Origin: Polytrichum commune
Taxonomy: Eukaryota > Streptophyta > Polytrichopsida > Polytrichales > Polytrichaceae
DNA length: 64,000 nt
Direction of reading: 5' to 3'
Assembly: GCA_950295325.1 (NCBI GenBank)
Contig: OX485806.1
Location: 18,354,001-18,418,000 of the forward strand
Positions 5,076 through 62,530 of the stretch are shown piece by piece (position 1 is the stretch's first letter; each line of letters starts with the position of its first letter). The notes below the pieces were generated by a model. The model searched no databases and had not been told where the DNA came from. It worked only from the letters and a program-made list of their open reading frames with translations. The position numbers were made by a program, and so were the translations under genes.

Positions 5076-6482
5076 TTTGATGCCCCAGGCGAGATCACAT
5101 CTTCATTCAGCTGGGCCCCACCCCTCCCACACCTCTTTCACTGCCCAGTCTTCCTGCCTGCACATGTGTGGGAACTCCTCCTCCTGGGGAACCAATGTGA
5201 CAATACCCGGTCCAAATTACAAATATTCAAGTTGACATCACTTTCATTTTTCCCGAGTCATTTGATGGAGTTCCTTCACATGCCACAGGAGCTTAATGGA
5301 CCGGGCGCTTGATGGCTTAAGTGACCATGTGTTGTCACATTGGTTCCCAAAGAGGAGGAGTTCCCACGCAAGTGCGGATAGGAAGACCGGGTAGTGGAGG
5401 AGGCGTGGGAGGGGGTGAGGCCCAACCGAATGAAGATGTGATCTAGCCCGGGGCTTCTTTGATGAGCTTCCGAATCGGACTTAACTCGTTCAGGCGATTT
5501 TGGTGCGATTGTGGTTCGGCCTTCGGGGGGTTAACTTATAAGTTGCGGTAGTGGTGACAACAATAATAACTCCACACCTGATAGTGCATTTTACCTTTTA
5601 TTTTGCAAAGTGCTTAAATGACCAGGTATTGTCACATTGGTTCCCAACGAGGAGGAGTTCCCACGCAAATGCGGGCAGGATAACCGGGTAGTGGAGGAGG
5701 TGTCGGAGGGGGTGAGGCCCAACCGAATGAAGATGTGATCTAGCCCGGGGCTTCTTTGCTGAGCTTCCAAATCGGACTGAAGTGTTTTAGGCAATTTTGG
5801 TGTGATTGTGGTTCGTCCTTTGGGGGGTTAACTTATAAGTTGCGGTAGTGGTGACAACAATAATAACTCCACACCTGAGAATGCATTTTACTTTTTTTCT
5901 ACAAAATACTTAAGTGACCAGGTATTATCACATTGATTCCCAACGAGAAGGAGTTCTCATGCAGATGCAGGCAAGAAGACTGGGTAGTGGAGGAGGCGTG
6001 GGATGGGGGCGGGGCCCATCCGGTGGCTTCTTTTATGAGCTTCCGAATCAGGCTGAACTATTTGAGGCGAATTTGGTGCGATTGTGGTTCGGCCTTTGGG
6101 GGCTTAACTTCTAAGTTGCGGTAGTGGTGACAACAATAATAACTCCACACCTGAGAGTGCATTTTACCTTTTTTCTTCTCTTTCACAAAGTGCTTAAATG
6201 ACCGGATATTATCACATTGGTTCCCAACGAGGAGGAGTTCCCAAGCAAATGCGAGCAGGAAGACCGAGTAGTGGAGGAGGTGTGGGAGGGGGTGAGGCCC
6301 AACTGAATGAAGATGTGATCTAGCCCGGGGCTTCTTTGATGAGCTTCCGAATCGGACTGAACTGTTTGAGGCGATTTTGGTGCGATTGTGGTTCAGCCTT
6401 TGGGGGCTTAACTTCCAAGGTTCGGTAGTAATGACAGCAGTAATAACTCCACACCCGAGAGTGCATTTTACCTTTTTGCCTG
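5076..6482 (+). repeat. tandem array of about 290-bp GC-rich units with one inverted copy
   Basis: Four direct units start near 5318, 5614, 5910 and 6194. The landmark CACATTGG or CACATTGA ends at 5344, 5640, 5936 and 6220, giving periods of 296, 296 and 284 bp. Unit 3 has lost the block holding GAAGATGTGATCTAGCCCGG. A partial unit in reverse orientation (5076-5215) lies ahead of the array, separated by about 100 bp, so the first unit and the inverted copy can pair. The array is richer in GC than its surroundings. Open frames within it (for example 5914-6114) are not conserved between units and are not called as genes. Confidence 0.88.
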
Positions 6483-31858: not shown

Positions 31859-31889
31859 CAATACTTTGGAGCATTAACGTATCTTCATC

Positions 31890-32321
31890 ATGGCAAACAC
31901 CGTAGGATTCTTGCTTAAGATGTCTTGGTTCATAGTTTTAATGTTGGTCATTGTCAATCTCATATCAATTGTCGAAGGTAATAGATTTGGCCCCTTCCCA
32001 ATGGGCCGAGGAGGACCTTTCGGTGCTGGTGGTCTCAGAGGACTCGAACCCTTCAGCGGCGGCGGTTTTGGAGGACTCGGACCTTTTGGAGGTGGAGGTC
32101 TCGGAGGCACTGGACCTTTGGGAGGCGGTGGTCTTGGAGGTCTAGGACCTTTTGGAGGCGGCGGTTTTGGGGGAGTAGGACCCTTTGGAGGAGTAGGACC
32201 TTTTGGAGGCAGCGGTTTGGGTTTCCCAATCAACTCAACCTTCCCGGGCTTAAACATCACCTTGCCTGCAATCAATGGTTCCTTCCCTAGGTTCCTCTTC
32301 CCCGGGTTCCCATTCCCTTAG
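31890..32321 (+). CDS. secreted glycine-rich protein, 143 aa
   Basis: A single uninterrupted exon. Residues 1-30 have a short polar start followed by a strongly hydrophobic run (FIVLMLVIVNLISIVEG), as in a signal peptide, so the product is expected in the secretory pathway, cell wall or apoplast. Residues about 38-111 are a glycine-rich repeat domain built on units such as GGFGGLGPFGG and GGLGGTGPLGG. The last 32 residues change to a Pro/Phe-rich tail with three N-glycosylation sequons (NST, NIT, NGS) and the end FPGFPFP. This is the general layout of plant structural glycine-rich proteins; no enzymatic motif is present. The start is the first ATG of the frame. The antisense proline-rich frame (31874-32275) is a shadow of the GGN codons. 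Expression is not shown. Confidence 0.72.
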   Translation: MANTVGFLLKMSWFIVLMLVIVNLISIVEGNRFGPFPMGRGGPFGAGGLRGLEPFSGGGFGGLGPFGGGGLGGTGPLGGGGLGGLGPFGGGGFGGVGPFGGVGPFGGSGLGFPINSTFPGLNITLPAINGSFPRFLFPGFPFP

Positions 32322-33387: not shown

Positions 33388-33826
33388 CCCAGAATGGCTC
33401 ATGGAATATACATGCTCACAAACCAGTTGCCAATGCCAAGCTAGACTAAGACCAGATATCCTATGTATAATCGGAGTCCCAAACCACACTCCAACACCGT
33501 TACTACCCTCACCCAATAGAATTCATTGAATTCACATACTGCCATGACAGATTCCCCGAACAAGCCCTCACACAAAAACATGCAAAATACGACCCACTAA
33601 TTAACACTATACAAACAAAGGCTGGAAAACGAACCCCCTTATCACTATTACAGCTGGAGTAAGAGGATCTATACACGAACAATCTATCAACCAACTAGCC
33701 AACCTCAAAATCCCAAAGACTAGCATCAAAACTCTCATGAAAAATATACATCAAAATGCCATTAAATACCTAACCTACCTCATACTCAACAAAAGGAAAC
33801 TTGAAAATAAACAAACTACCATCTAA
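33388..33826 (+). pseudogene. non-LTR retrotransposon restriction-like endonuclease end, broken copy
   Basis: Homologous to the last part of the frame at 37367-38584. Reading three plus-strand frames in turn gives PEWLMEYTCSQTSCQCQARL then RPDILCIIGVP, next IEFIEFTYCHDRF with KHAKYDPLI, then GWKTNPLITITAGVRGSIH and a C-terminal tail ending before a stop at 33826. The order and the key residues match the restriction-like endonuclease (RPD, E of the IEF, K..KY). Two frame changes (near 33505 and 33625) show it is dead. The 5' boundary is unclear; a fold-back element ends 145 bp upstream. Confidence 0.8.
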
Positions 33827-36690: not shown

Positions 36691-37366
36691 GGCAAAAATA
36701 GAAGTTCAAGGGAGGAGATAGGATCTTTTGTCCCACTCATGTGGTTGGATGGTTCGAGCTCATATGCAATCACAATATTGTTGTTAAGTTGTAAGACTTT
36801 TCTAATGTATAAAGTTTGAAAGTTCATGATATTGATGTCTCATGTACGCATGTGATTGTATTATTTTTGTGTAAAGGAAGAACATGATACATAGTCTAGC
36901 CTCTTCTAAACACATGTCTTTTTGGTGTCCGTTCTTAGATCACACCTAACCACATACCACTGAAAATATAGATATCCGATTAAATGAACTAAATGAGTAA
37001 GGTCCACATACCTTAGGCAAAGTTTATAGTGCTTCATTGGAATGTCCAACACACGGGTCCACAGAAGTCCACCCTTTATATAGTCCACCCTCGATATATG
37101 TTAACACTTCAAAGCAAGGAAACTCGTAACAGTTTTTCGGTGTTAACACTTTAACACTTATTGGAAATTGGGGGTGGCATAGACACTTTGTAACACTTAC
37201 ATGAATAACATTTATGCGACTTTGGAGTTAAAAACAATAACACTTATATAAATAAAGGATGAAATTACACAAGGCATGAATGTCATCATACATCTTAGCA
37301 TAATGGGAGAATGAATCTAAAGTAATTTGATGAGATTCTTGTGCATGCCAAAATCTTATTTTCTTT
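36691..37366. other. intergenic with a diverged dispersed repeat
   Basis: About 36905-37020 matches the sequence near 17995-18090 (ACATGTCTTTTTGGT, CCACATACCACTGAAAATAT). Nothing coding is recognised. Confidence 0.35.
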
Positions 37367-38584
37367 TTGAAGCATCCGATTGCTCCGGATGGGAGGTGTA
37401 ACATCAATAGGCATTTGTTCCAAAAATCATTCAAGGTCACCAATGCACACTCAACATCCTTCAATCCTACAATAGCCACCCTGACAAAGTCACACTTGCC
37501 TCCATGGTACAATTGCTCCAAAACCGCTCCCAACCAATTACATTATATAAAGTTATGGGCACATGTCAACATAGACGGCAACGAACAAGCAGATAAACTA
37601 GCAAAAGAAGGACTAGACCTTACCCATAGAAGTGCCACACACCCATATGAACACGACCATGCCACACCTTATTACTACCAAAAAGACGAATGGCCATCAA
37701 TGATAGACACACCAGACAAAGGCCCTGTTAGATTCCTAGAAAAACAAATCAAAAAATATGACAGAATAAACAACTTAGAAACTATGGCCATACAAACCCC
37801 CAATATCTGTAAATGGACCGGCAATGAAGACATTGACAAAGAACTTTCCAATGAATTTTGGAATAACCCTACTATTACAGACAAGCAAAAATCATGCCTT
37901 ATCAAATTTTGCACCGGAACCTACATGGGCCAAGCTAGAAAACAAATAATTTTTGGAAGACAAAGATTCCCCACCATCACCTGCCCCATGTGTAATTCAT
38001 ACGAATATGATACATGGCTACATGTACTACTCACATGTAGGCAACAACATATACACTCACTACACGTCCAAAGGCATAATAAAGCAATATGGGAAATCAT
38101 GAAACTACTAATTTCTTCCGAAAAATCCCGATGCTACACTCTCATGAACGCCGGTACCTTCAATGACAACCCCCAAGAAAACACCGTCCCTAACTGGCTA
38201 TTACCTTGCACATGTGGGACCCAAAGATGCCACTGTAACTCTCGATTTAGACCCGACATTCTTTGTGTTAAAGGGCTACCATATCAAAATGCACCCCCCA
38301 CAAATATAGACCAAGCACTTACCATACAATTCATTGAATTCACATACTGTAATGACAGATTTTCACCAGAAACACTAGAAGTGAAAACTAACAAATACAA
38401 ACCACTGATAGAAAACATTGCTGCCCTGGGCTGGAAGATTGATCCGCTCATTGTTATTACAGCAGGCGCCAGAGCCGCAACACACATTCCATCAATGAAA
38501 CTACTTGAGGACAAATTTAAATTACCTATGCCATCCATCCGAAACACCTTCAAAAACATCAATACCATTGCCATACAATACTAG
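37367..38584 (+). pseudogene. non-LTR retrotransposon 3' part: RNase H, CCHC knuckle and restriction-like endonuclease
   Basis: A 405-codon frame truncated at its 5' end. Residues 61-82 (WAHVNIDGNEQADKLAKEG) are the C-terminal RNase H motif, with His66 and Asp76. The preceding RNase H strand continues in another frame (SHPDKVTLASMVQLLQNRSQ, about 37465-37525), so a frameshift lies near 37550. Residues 206-224 form CPMC-x9-H-x4-C. Residues 281-297 hold a C-T-C..C-H-C cluster followed by RPD. Glu324 in FIEFTY and K340-x2-K343-Tyr344 complete a PD-(D/E)xK-like pattern of the R2-type restriction-like endonuclease. The tail ends IAIQY then stop. No reverse transcriptase lies upstream. L1 and RTE, the usual plant LINEs, lack this end; Dualen/RandI-like is one possibility. 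Confidence 0.78.
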
Positions 38585-42562: not shown

Positions 42563-43027
42563 GGGCCACTTCACACACGAGACTTAGAGTCACTATTACA
42601 CTTTAAGTAGTCTCATTAGTGGAAAAGTCGGAGCCAACCCAAGTTCGCTTCACACTGCGCTTGAGGGACCAACTGAGTATGTGAATGCAAGATGGATGTA
42701 AAGTCATCATGGACTCCTACATGACATCGAATGGATCATGTTTCATGGTCACTTGGATTATTTTCAAAAACCACCTCTTGTAGGTAGGCCTAACACAAAA
42801 CGGGAAGACCATGCAGTACTCCAAACGCTCACAACCATTGCATGAATAGAAATTCATTGAAATAGCATTTGGTTGAGGGCCCGGTCACATATGATTTCCC
42901 ACTACACTTGAGGGTCCGTGACCACACTACATGATTATGGAGTTGTCTTGGGACGGCCTTTGGACACTTTCTTTTGGGCTCTCACAATTTCATGGTCACG
43001 GCTCTTGGCTCGTGTGTGAAGTGACCC
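42563..43027. mobile_element. PIF/Harbinger-type MITE, copy 2
   Basis: Same orientation and ends as 1002-1485: it begins GGGCCACTTCACACACGAG and ends GCTCGTGTGTGAAGTGACCC. It is flanked by TCA on both sides (42560-42562 and 43028-43030). Internal deletions distinguish it from copy 1. Non-coding. Confidence 0.82.
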
Positions 43028-45012
43028 TCATATGTGTTATGAAAGGTGGAACCGGGGACTAGTCTATATAATTATATATAAACCACATCCCCACTCTTCC
43101 AAGCCGCAGCTGAACATAACTCATGAGCTTTCCATGTTTGATACTCTATGTATATACACACACACAACTTGAAGCCCAGGTATTTTAAATGGACTACTGT
43201 CCAATAACAAACTTATTATTATTATTATTATTATTGGGATTGGACAGTTCACTGACTACTGCACCAATGTCTGAGTCTCAGATCAATCACATGTGCTGCA
43301 TGCGCTCGCAAACTGAATAATTTCATATTGCCATCAATTTCCTACACAATGTCCTGAAATGCTTGAAGTGTCTACAAAAGGCACATTCACCTCAGTGCAA
43401 TATCTACAAGTTGGATTACGTTTTCTTGCAAAAAATGTAAAACCAAGTGATCGCAAGGTTGCGACATGTTCTTGAGGGGTTGTGTGATGTATATCTACAC
43501 TTGAGAGCATGCCCCGGGAAACTCATACGCATTCACACAATGCAACAGTCACATACTGATTTTGTAATCACGCCAGACTTTGTATCAACTTTGCGGTATT
43601 AATGGCACTTATCCGCCCACCCAATCACTCGAGTTTTTGATCCAAAATCGAAAAGTGTTGCGGGCGCACTTGAATACCGCCCAGTTGGTCATTCGTTCAG
43701 TCTTAACAACATCACTGTTGGGGAATTGGACAGAATCAATGGTCCTCTGAAACTGTCAGGGACAGTTTAAAGGATCTAGATACCCAAGTACTGCAAAATT
43801 TAAAATGCAGTTTGCAGCTTGCATTCTCCAGAGCCTGATCAATATAGCTTTCTTCTTCACACGGATTCAATACATGTGCATCATTTCGTTCAAATGCAAA
43901 TCTAGACGCCTAGTACTAACATCATCTGAATTGGCTCTCAGACAGAAGGGAAAGAGTTAAGTGCACTGGCAAGACATAAACCTGTGGCACAGCTTGAAAG
44001 CAAGGTATGATGAGTGTGTATCATTCCCGAAATCATTGTTAAGCATCATCAGCCAATTGGTGAAAAGTGCATGAACCACCGATACTGCCATGCATTTTTG
44101 AAGAGCTTTCCCAAATTAGGGCTAGGTACATCTAAACATCGAGTTTGCAGTGAGCAGTGACATCATGATGAATATCTCTTGTATGGATGTCTTGATGCTG
44201 CTTTTTGCAGTGAGCAATGTGATTCTACTCCTCCACAGTGTTCTTGGTTTCAGAGATGAGTAGAGTTTTTCACAATTTCATCATGTGTATTAGTTCATTC
44301 AAAACACCTGTGTATGTCCATCATCTGAAGCTCTAGTCAGAGAGAAGGAAAAGAAAGTGCACTGGCAGGACATGTATCGACAATGTGGCAGAGCTTGAAG
44401 ACAAGGTAACATAGTATTGTGTAGTTTGTTAAGCATCATCCGGCAATTGGTCACAAAGTGCAGCCACCGGTAGTCTCATGCATTTGAAGAACTTGGCTTA
44501 TATAGGTACTCTTAGTCCAAAAGCCATACCTAGGACAAAAACAGGACAAGAACTGGAAGGAGTAAGAGAATTACTCATTAATATAAAATCCCAAAATAGG
44601 GTTAGGTACATCTACATCAAGATAGATCCGCAACATTCCGGTGAGAAGCTCACAGTGGTGAACTGGATTGCGTCATAAGTTAGATAGGTGAATATTGAAG
44701 GGCGGGTCCATTCTCTGTAATGCCATATTCTCTACAGTAAACTACGACGAAGGTGTAGTGAGAAATCAATGTTATTTATTCCAAGCACTTGACATTCATT
44801 CAGTTGGACGAGTCCTGGACAGACCTTCAATTACTAGTAAAACATGCAAAGTTCTTGCCCTTCAAACGGGTCCTGTTCTCATTCATCCGTGGGGTTAAGT
44901 GCTCTCTCTTTCACAGTTTCTTGTTCTCCTCGTTTGACAATGGTAGGCAGGATCAATGCCGCTTCACTGATTGGGTTCACGGCGTAGTAGGAGTGACATT
45001 GTTTCTCCGGCT
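43028..45012. other. upstream region of SERINC with a local duplication
   Basis: About 43870-44115 and 44280-44620 are diverged direct copies. Shared blocks include GTGCACTGGCAAGACAT, the AGCTTGAAAGCAAGGTA type, TTAAGCATCATCAGCCAATT, and a closing TAGGGCTAGGTACATCTA. A (TTA)n run lies at 43213-43235. Small frames at 44478-45118 do not conserve between the copies. The region may include the SERINC promoter and 5' UTR, but no core promoter motif can be fixed. Confidence 0.45.
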
Positions 45013-61439: not shown

Positions 61440-62530
61440 TCAAAGCTCTTTTCGCCCTAAATATCATGAGAACCCGGTCACTGGTAACTCCACTGTTTAT
61501 GGTATTTAGCGTCACTTACTATTTGGAGTTACTCCTAACTCTAACATTCTACTATGAATGAAATACAATAGTAAATAGGCACACTAAAGGTCTACTTTAG
61601 TGCAGCCCACACTATTCATCGTCGACCCACATTGATTGTTTTGGAACATGATAGTAAATAGGTCCACTAAATGTTTCATTTAATGCAGCCCACACTATTC
61701 ATCGTCGATAGACATTGAATGTCTTTGGAATAATTACAAAGAATGGTACAAAGAAAAGTTTGACAAAAGTTTCTTGTTCTTCATAAGAGGGACAGGTGAA
61801 GTGAAACATGTTGTGTCCAATCTTCGAGGATGTTTGTTAATCCGTAGATTTTTTTTTGGGAGCACGATTTGGACCTCTTATACTTACAGTATTTTGAAAT
61901 TGTACAATGTGAATTCAGATTATGATGTGACTTTTTGGTACATAACAATAGCGTGTTGTCACGCAAGGTTATCTTTATTGACACCCACGATATTAATTCA
62001 AAATGAGTTTGATGAAAATCTCATTTCATCCAATATAAAGAGAGAATGCGCAACTAGTATGAACATGCTATTATTGTTTAGGGGTTAAGGCGAGGTTTGC
62101 TGCAATGTGCTTAGCGTCACTTCGTTCCATTGGTTGTGTAGAAGTAGTATGTTACACTAAATATGACATTTAGTGTCACATGGTATTTTATGTCACATGG
62201 TAACTTTCCGGATGACACTTCTTATGAATAAGTGAACAAATAGTGTCATGGATGATGGATGAGTTCATCCCTTGGCCAAACCCCTACCTACTCTTGTGAG
62301 CAACTTGTGATGAAACATTGTCATGGATGATTGAAATTTGGATGAAACATCACTTGGTAGGTGACTGTAATTGCAACACTGTAAATCATTTTAAAAAATT
62401 AGAAGGAATGACAAATCATGTTGGGTTAACATTTAGTGTTGGTGACACTACATTGCATTAGTATTGAGCATGACAATTAGAATTGGTGACAGTAAATATC
62501 AAATTTAGAGTAGTAGGTTCCTCTATCCAT
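61440..62530. repeat. TTTAGTGT-rich repeat region with 83-bp duplication
   Basis: The start (about 61490, TTTATGGTATTTAGCGTCAC) resembles the terminal repeat at 23131, and a possible inverted partner lies near 62488-62515. An 83-bp direct duplication carries CAGCCCACACTATTCATCGT at 61602 and 61685. Several TTTAGTGT and ACACTAAA motifs follow at 62150-62470. The 104-codon frame at 61774-62088 has no recognisable domain. Confidence 0.4.

Follow-up and report, generated by a model that had tools for sequence, protein, structure and literature searches.

Does a land plant carry a retrotransposon that joins an RNase H to a restriction-like endonuclease (RLE)? The question is raised by one open frame in the window, by which we mean the whole stretch of 64,000 nucleotides of Polytrichum commune DNA analysed here. 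A first-pass annotation had placed such an element at positions 37367-38584. The frame is real (37334-38584, 416 codons in the translation of the window) and holds every motif listed for it, but homology to the element is confined to 37468-38581; of the annotated range, roughly the first 34 codons are non-element DNA, and roughly 27 codons after them come from the element but are translated out of frame. The window thus contains a fragment of a LINE second open reading frame (ORF2) truncated on both sides, cut within the RNase H and stopping within the RLE. Its parts, compared with the ORF2 of a full-length copy from the genome (L003), and a second relic in the window are as follows.

37468-37560, plus strand: ORF2 residues 2231-2261, part of the RNase H upstream of its last motif, in a frame that differs from the remainder; 65% identity (tblastn with the L003 ORF2).
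37550-38581, plus strand: ORF2 residues 2258-2601, comprising the RNase H end, a linker, the zinc clusters and the RLE; 79% identity over 344 residues (tblastn).
37577-37612, plus strand: last RNase H motif, GNEQADKLAKEG, read from the translation; the RNase H is complete in full-length copies (PF00075, E 7.3e-13 in L003).
37982-38038, plus strand: CCHC zinc knuckle, C-x2-C-x9-H-x4-C, read from the translation; none of its four residues varies among the 17 aligned rows.
38207-38236, plus strand: second cysteine cluster, CTC...CHC, read from the translation; all 17 rows share its four cysteines.
38096-38581, plus strand: predicted RLE domain lacking its final residues, from the AlphaFold model of the equivalent L003 region, for which the top six Foldseek matches in the PDB are R2 proteins.
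38249-38257, 38336-38338 and 38384-38398, plus strand: the RLE motifs RPD, E and K-x2-K-Y, respectively, read from the translation.
33389-33814, plus strand: second, older RLE relic, from the diverged family D and with stop codons; 41% identity, E 6e-22 (tblastn).

The window copy is dead, with both ends absent and a frameshift, and it is a fossil because both ends are missing; its DNA is 77% identical to a full copy over 37469-38580. Rfam and tRNA scans of the window returned nothing. Several other features of the window were noted in passing. A 147-codon frame at 31878-32321 (plus strand) is glycine-rich, with a hydrophobic N-terminal stretch and repeats of the GGLGPFGGG type, and is possibly a gene for a small secreted protein; a 33-bp tandem repeat lies within it at 32012-32191. 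A 297-bp unit is repeated in tandem, in about four copies, at 5315-6476. Short matches occur at 62153-62387 (68%) to DNA upstream of the full-length copy C5, and at 1446-1487 (93%) and 42987-43028 (90%), both on the minus strand, to the 5' region of copy C1; the window therefore also holds other repeats or 5' pieces.

Our reading, to which we assign a probability of roughly 0.87, is that the fragment is a remnant of a large, recently active family of dual-endonuclease (Dualen-like) non-LTR retrotransposons in a land plant, a moss. The genome searched is a 408-Mb assembly of 64 contigs, seven of which, of 42 to 78 Mb, sum to 406 Mb; a set of seven chromosomes might suit Polytrichaceae. RbcS has 19 matches in the assembly, and 9pvb is its best counterpart. 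The PsaD of the assembly, with two exons joined, scores highest with 7ksq, 6l35 and 8htu, photosystem I structures of Physcomitrium (300-302 bits, the next reaching 276); the composite chain 9vfj had a higher total score but was set aside, as none of its stretches passed. These proteins point to a moss as the likely host. With the window protein as the query, all 103 places scored matched at E <= 1.7e-191, the window copy included; these were scored among 5,535 first-look candidates, so that 103 is a lower bound and the candidate number is rough. Because every scored place matches and none of the 17 aligned rows departs from the RLE residues P-D, E, K and K-Y, the window match is no chance product. 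A genome search with PF12237, the profile of a domain found in the full-length copies, matched at 150 of 150 scored places (among 698 candidates, again a lower bound with a rough candidate number), and each of the 24 of these loci that were read contains the ORF2 of this element. The relic at 33389-33814, used in the same way, matched at 150/150 scored places, itself included, at E <= 4.3e-48 (among 5,296 candidates, with the same reservations about the two numbers), and therefore led to family D. The ORF2 of this family (L036, L037 and L038) is 41-44% identical to that of L003 along its length and keeps the domain order; L036 lacks the part of the reverse transcriptase (RT) that follows YADD. 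The four families read, A-D, share one common architecture.

Full-length copies with the same C terminus were sought in the genome and found, several of them flanked by target-site duplications (TSDs). Copies L003, L004 and L005 measure 12.0-12.7 kb as delimited by their TSDs, and L011 and L013 about 13.3-13.5 kb. The ORF2 frame is uninterrupted in L003, L004 and L005 (2,625 codons), L011 (2,919), L012 (2,924) and L013 (2,663). An ORF1 frame of 747 codons precedes it and overlaps it by 25 nt; no frameshift signal was seen by eye in this overlap, and the 539 amino acids of ORF1 from its likely start have no Pfam match. ORF2 then runs from a leader through a 2A (StopGo) motif, an APE endonuclease, the RT, a chromodomain-like fold, a PCIF1/CAPAM-like region and the RNase H to two cysteine clusters and the RLE; the 2A, PCIF1-like and chromodomain-like regions of the full copies fall outside the window fragment. 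TSDs of 10-14 bp were found in five of the six copies examined (TTGAATTAGG, CATTCTTAAC, GGCCCCATAGG, TATGTAGATGAAGG and TGACTCCCACT), and none was found for L012 in the stretch examined. In copy C2 (L004), and in that copy only, the TSD adjoins an independently seen end of homology, the remaining TSDs being defined by the repeat itself. The full copies are products of retrotransposition, recent for L003, L004 and L005, which are near-identical (98.7-99.2% in protein and 99.3-99.6% in DNA). Sequence-specific targeting was considered and set aside, as the five TSDs lie at unrelated sequences and no fixed target is visible.

The 3' end carries a hairpin of the form ACGCCGG...CCGGAGTT, followed by (TATC)n. 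The hairpin pattern matches 7 of 10 copies (L003, L004, L005, L011, L012, L013 and L036), and L014 has a variant by eye. Its stems vary between families with pairing kept, and L003 and L011 differ by at least one change on both sides, by inspection; such a 3' end fits its stringent recognition by the RT. Tails are (TATC)n in families A and B and (TTC)n in family C, in L014. Two of the three family D copies end in TTTTTC (L036) or TTTTC (L038) repeats; the tail of L037 was not identified.

The identity of the C-terminal domain comes from its predicted fold, as neither phmmer and hmmsearch against PDB sequences nor a Pfam search gave an RLE match for this region. An alignment of 17 rows was built from the 15 loci, among 26 tested, that have the region in one open frame, together with L003 and the window; the motif residues invariant in it recur in family D. 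The AlphaFold model of this alignment has a pLDDT of 61.6 overall and mostly 70-90 across the endonuclease. In Foldseek, R2 retrotransposon proteins take the first six places among the PDB matches, and three of these fall below E 0.001 (chains 9nl2, 6.7e-5; 8gh6, 2.0e-4; 8iby, 2.6e-4); the TM-scores are low, at 0.34-0.37, and the rmsd is large. With the C-terminal ends of R2, VIA-align returned Z 9.1-10.1 and rmsd 5.7-9.0 over 159-170 residues; bunyavirus cap-snatching endonucleases, another PD-(D/E)xK fold, gave Z 9.2 with rmsd near 4.3 and so tie with R2 by Z at a lower rmsd. The model thus supports an R2-type RLE at the C terminus, as the first-pass annotation had proposed from the motifs.

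That annotation had also set the element apart from LINEs that use an APE endonuclease; the RLE is present, but an APE is encoded as well, upstream of the fragment. In Pfam searches of ORF2, L003 matched RVT_1 (1.1e-29), RNase_H (7.3e-13) and PCIF1_WW (3.6e-10). The APE profile PF03372 (Exo_endo_phos) scores above its cut-off in L011 (1.3e-5) and in the family D copies L036, L037 and L038 (9.3e-8 to 2.2e-6); in family A it is below the cut-off in L004 (E 8.8e-4) and absent from L003, L005, L012 and L013. Against solved structures, the APE region matched exonuclease III alone, at E 0.006. A motif table covering seven elements in ten frames of families A-D records the APE motifs N, E, Y, D-x-N, D and SDH, all six of them in families A, B and D, together with RT YADD, RNase H D-E-D-H-D, and RLE P-D, E and K-Y. 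A few patterns were unmatched. The SDH pattern failed in L012 and L013 through an I in place of V, although L012 does contain SDH; the broken copy L014 gave no match for SDH, APE Y and one RNase H Asp; and CCHC was unmatched in L037 as well as in L038, which also had no match for the second cluster. For the RNase H, PF00075 matched the ORF2s at E 3.6e-12 to 2e-16, and the D-E-D-H-D motifs are present.

Upstream of the APE part, L003 carries the 2A sequence LLKCGDIEPNPGP. The 2A ends at frame residue 285 in L003 and 586 in L011; L037 and L038 have the motif outside the main ORF2, in another frame. A D(V/I)ExNPGP core with E is found in six of the ten copies read (L003, L004, L005, L011, L036 and L038), and K or H replaces E in the other four (L012, L013, L014 and L037). 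Given this lysine or histidine at the key glutamate of the StopGo core, some subfamilies may have lost skipping. A degenerate codon pattern for GDIExNPGP has 255 matches in the genome, the first 100 of which, as listed, include L004, L005 and L011, and the pattern read backwards has none. 2A-like sequences in non-LTR elements are known from the available text of one source (PMC4981915), and the accessible part of a 2026 PNAS paper reports no evidence for natural use of StopGo by plant viruses (PMC12846837).

Substitution rates indicate which parts of ORF2 have been maintained. Between L003 and L012, both of family A, dN/dS is 0.06 for the APE, 0.07 for the RT, 0.04 for the chromodomain-like part, 0.09 for the PCIF1-like part, 0.05 for the RNase H, 0.08 for the linker and 0.10 for the RLE, compared with 0.52 for the leader before the 2A. 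For the pair L003-L011 the ratios range from 0.06 to 0.15, with the chromodomain-like part (0.43) and the leader (0.62) as exceptions, at dS of 1.1-3.4, which is mostly saturated. The low ratios therefore argue that both endonucleases and the PCIF1-like domain have been kept by selection; for the chromodomain-like part the evidence of selection is mixed.

The two additional regions between the RT and the RNase H were compared with known folds. PF12237 (PCIF1_WW) scores above its cut-off in copies of families A and B, and below it in family D (2.3e-6 to 1.1e-5). A second alignment contains 22 rows, five of which cover all 511 residues, L004 having been omitted as nearly identical to L003. The model of the PCIF1 region is of low confidence (pLDDT 44.4); with it, Foldseek places CAPAM/PCIF1 first (6irv, E 0.016), with no match passing 0.001, and the first six VIA rows are CAPAM/PCIF1 at Z 6.1-6.4. 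A profile HMM of the alignment searched against the PDB found CAPAM weakly, at E 0.011 and 0.042. Such Z values by themselves lie in the range that the tool calls common, and the weight lies in their agreement with Pfam and sequence. Chromodomains follow CAPAM in the VIA results (HP1, MPP8, CBX, SUV39H1, Chd1 and others), with Z 4-5.6 and rmsd 1.6-3.7 A over about 50-69 residues, at model residues of about 103-187; the Pfam match to Chromo is weak (E 0.05 in one of three sequences).

Several other explanations must be weighed against this reading. As the window frame holds no more of the RNase H than its last motif, with the change of frame adjoining it, that motif could have come from an unrelated neighbouring element; this is scarcely conceivable, as nine copies (L003, L004, L005, L011, L012, L013, L036, L037 and L038) encode both RNase H and RLE within a single unbroken ORF2. 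These copies refute a neighbouring origin and bear out the first-pass claim that both domains belong to one retrotransposon. Alternatively, the element might be a plant L1 whose degenerate C terminus merely resembles an RLE. The host does have many elements with zf-RVT, a plant L1 domain (for example, L042, L043 and L044), and 141 of 150 scored candidates match, so two LINE types coexist in the genome; an RNase H is possible in plant L1, and the RLE was not found by sequence or Pfam alone. An L1 origin is nevertheless very improbable. Compared with solved proteins, the RT of L003 reaches 106 bits for R2 and 60 for human L1, whereas a moss L1 RT from the same genome, used as a control, reverses the order (L1 171 bits, R2 75). 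Mean RT identities are low and close (26% from A-D to R2, 24% to moss L1). In an unrooted tree of 12 RT sequences, a single clade unites families A-D (UFBoot 100), moss L1 stands apart (100), and R2 is split from A-D and moss L1 together (96); this tree is silent on rooting. Its references were R2 and moss L1. An RNase H that retains the H of D-E-D-H-D, a tail that is not poly(A), and the R2 fold match of the RLE with its invariant P-D, E, K and K-Y residues also speak against L1, and this origin was rejected on the RT scores and the RT tree. When viral contigs were scanned for relatives of the RT, 0 of 87 pattern matches were confirmed.

Two further alternatives concern the activity of one domain and the ancestry of the whole. 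The PCIF1-like domain could be enzymatically active, marking the RNA of its own element as a cap or RNA adenine methyltransferase, and both its fold and sequence similarity to CAPAM and its purifying selection (dN/dS 0.09 and 0.07) would suit such a role. However, the catalytic motif of the PCIF1/CAPAM methyltransferase is NPPF, and this position reads HP[HPNY] in 22 of 22 aligned rows and FPT in all three family D copies. Since NPPF is replaced, classical methyltransferase activity is not expected from the sequence, and we regard an active enzyme as improbable. As to ancestry, the element might represent a separate clade that gained its RLE (or its APE) independently of algal Dualen, so that the dual-endonuclease design arose twice. 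Dualen has a cysteine protease domain, and Pfam found no protease family in ORF1 or ORF2 of the moss element, long parts of which have no annotation; the PCIF1-like, chromodomain-like and 2A parts have no Dualen report among the literature matches listed; and the two elements were compared by description rather than by sequence. Against a double origin stand the same domain set, the simple-repeat tail that is not poly(A), as in RandI of green algae, a host in the same plant lineage as green algae, and the single architecture of families A-D. We consider independent gain unlikely.

How such an element would multiply can be sketched from its parts. It presumably copies itself by target-primed reverse transcription, in which the RT would recognize the 3' hairpin and the repeat tail, one endonuclease would nick the first strand, the other may cut the second, and the RNase H would clear the RNA. 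At the 2A, the ribosome would separate the enzyme part from a leader whose length varies. Tethering to chromatin may be the task of the chromodomain-like part, and the methyltransferase-like domain, which lacks NPPF, may grip the RNA by its capped 5' end instead of methylating it. Tentatively, and at somewhat below even odds, we suggest that a living branch of dual-endonuclease LINEs exists in land plants, in which one ORF has added StopGo, a chromatin-reading chromodomain, and a captured mRNA-cap methyltransferase fold that now serves to bind the cap or RNA. If true, one giant protein would link the 5' cap, the chromatin target and both strand cuts in target-primed reverse transcription. Being abundant, diversified and apparently active until recently, the family provides a second dual-endonuclease lineage, in a land plant and accessible to experiment, beside that of green algae. 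With both endonucleases under strong selection, the division of labour between APE and RLE is open to testing. The element also supplies StopGo sequences that occur naturally in a plant, and a relative of the m6Am cap methyltransferase that is carried by a retrotransposon.

The details of the Dualen design (APE, RLE, RT and RNase H) are reportedly given by Kojima and Fujiwara in 2005. In the accessible text of PMC4640811, Dualen is the group that encodes both APE and RLE, an RNase H is given for Dualen/RandI, and the position of Dualen is used to argue that APE LINEs arose through replacement of the RLE. Dualen is recorded from relatives of Chlamydomonas (PMC8226300, in part), and the available portion of PMC3747384 places RandI, with non-poly(A) tails, under green algae and assigns only L1 and RTE to flowering plants; the table there has no row for mosses. 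Plant LINEs are likewise L1 and RTE in the excerpted text of a 2022 review (PMC9033089), and for Physcomitrium the part available of PMC7466625 names two LINEs and mentions neither RandI nor an endonuclease. Among the literature matches listed, with Repbase and most subscription papers outside their scope, there was no RLE LINE from land plants and no PCIF1 domain in a retrotransposon.

Among known systems, Dualen/RandI is the closest in architecture, as the first-pass annotation had suggested. The moss element shares with it APE and RLE together with RT and RNase H in one element (PMC4640811, as excerpted) and a 3' tail of simple repeats rather than poly(A) (PMC3747384, likewise), and this comparison of architectures supports calling it Dualen-like. 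It differs in its land-plant host, in the 2A before the APE, in its chromodomain-like and PCIF1-like regions, and in having no cysteine protease by Pfam. R2 and the other RLE LINEs (R4, NeSL, HERO, CRE and Utopia) share the C-terminal CCHC and RLE with the R2 fold, and among solved structures the RT scores best with R2; unlike them, the moss element has an APE as well, its RNase H sits between RT and RLE, and its five TSDs reveal no fixed target. With plant L1 LINEs it has in common ORF1 and ORF2, APE, RT and, often, RNase H, whereas the RLE end, the R2-leaning RT and the simple-repeat tail in place of poly(A) set it apart. Animal APE LINEs with a 2A have the D(V/I)ExNPGP motif ahead of the endonuclease part, and such 2A-bearing LINEs are said to be the subject of Odon 2013; the moss element differs from them in its plant host and in its RLE and extra domains. 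SymbioLINE-Dnmt and KnitGypsy-Dnmt3 resemble it as retrotransposons with an acquired domain of a methyltransferase family, but theirs are cytosine DNA methyltransferases, whereas the moss domain is PCIF1-like and has lost the motif (PMC5890265, in the text available). Beyond the set of the algal Dualen/RandI elements, the moss family has thus made further additions, a 2A motif and PCIF1-like and chromodomain-like regions, with putative roles in releasing the leader, holding the RNA and tethering to chromatin.
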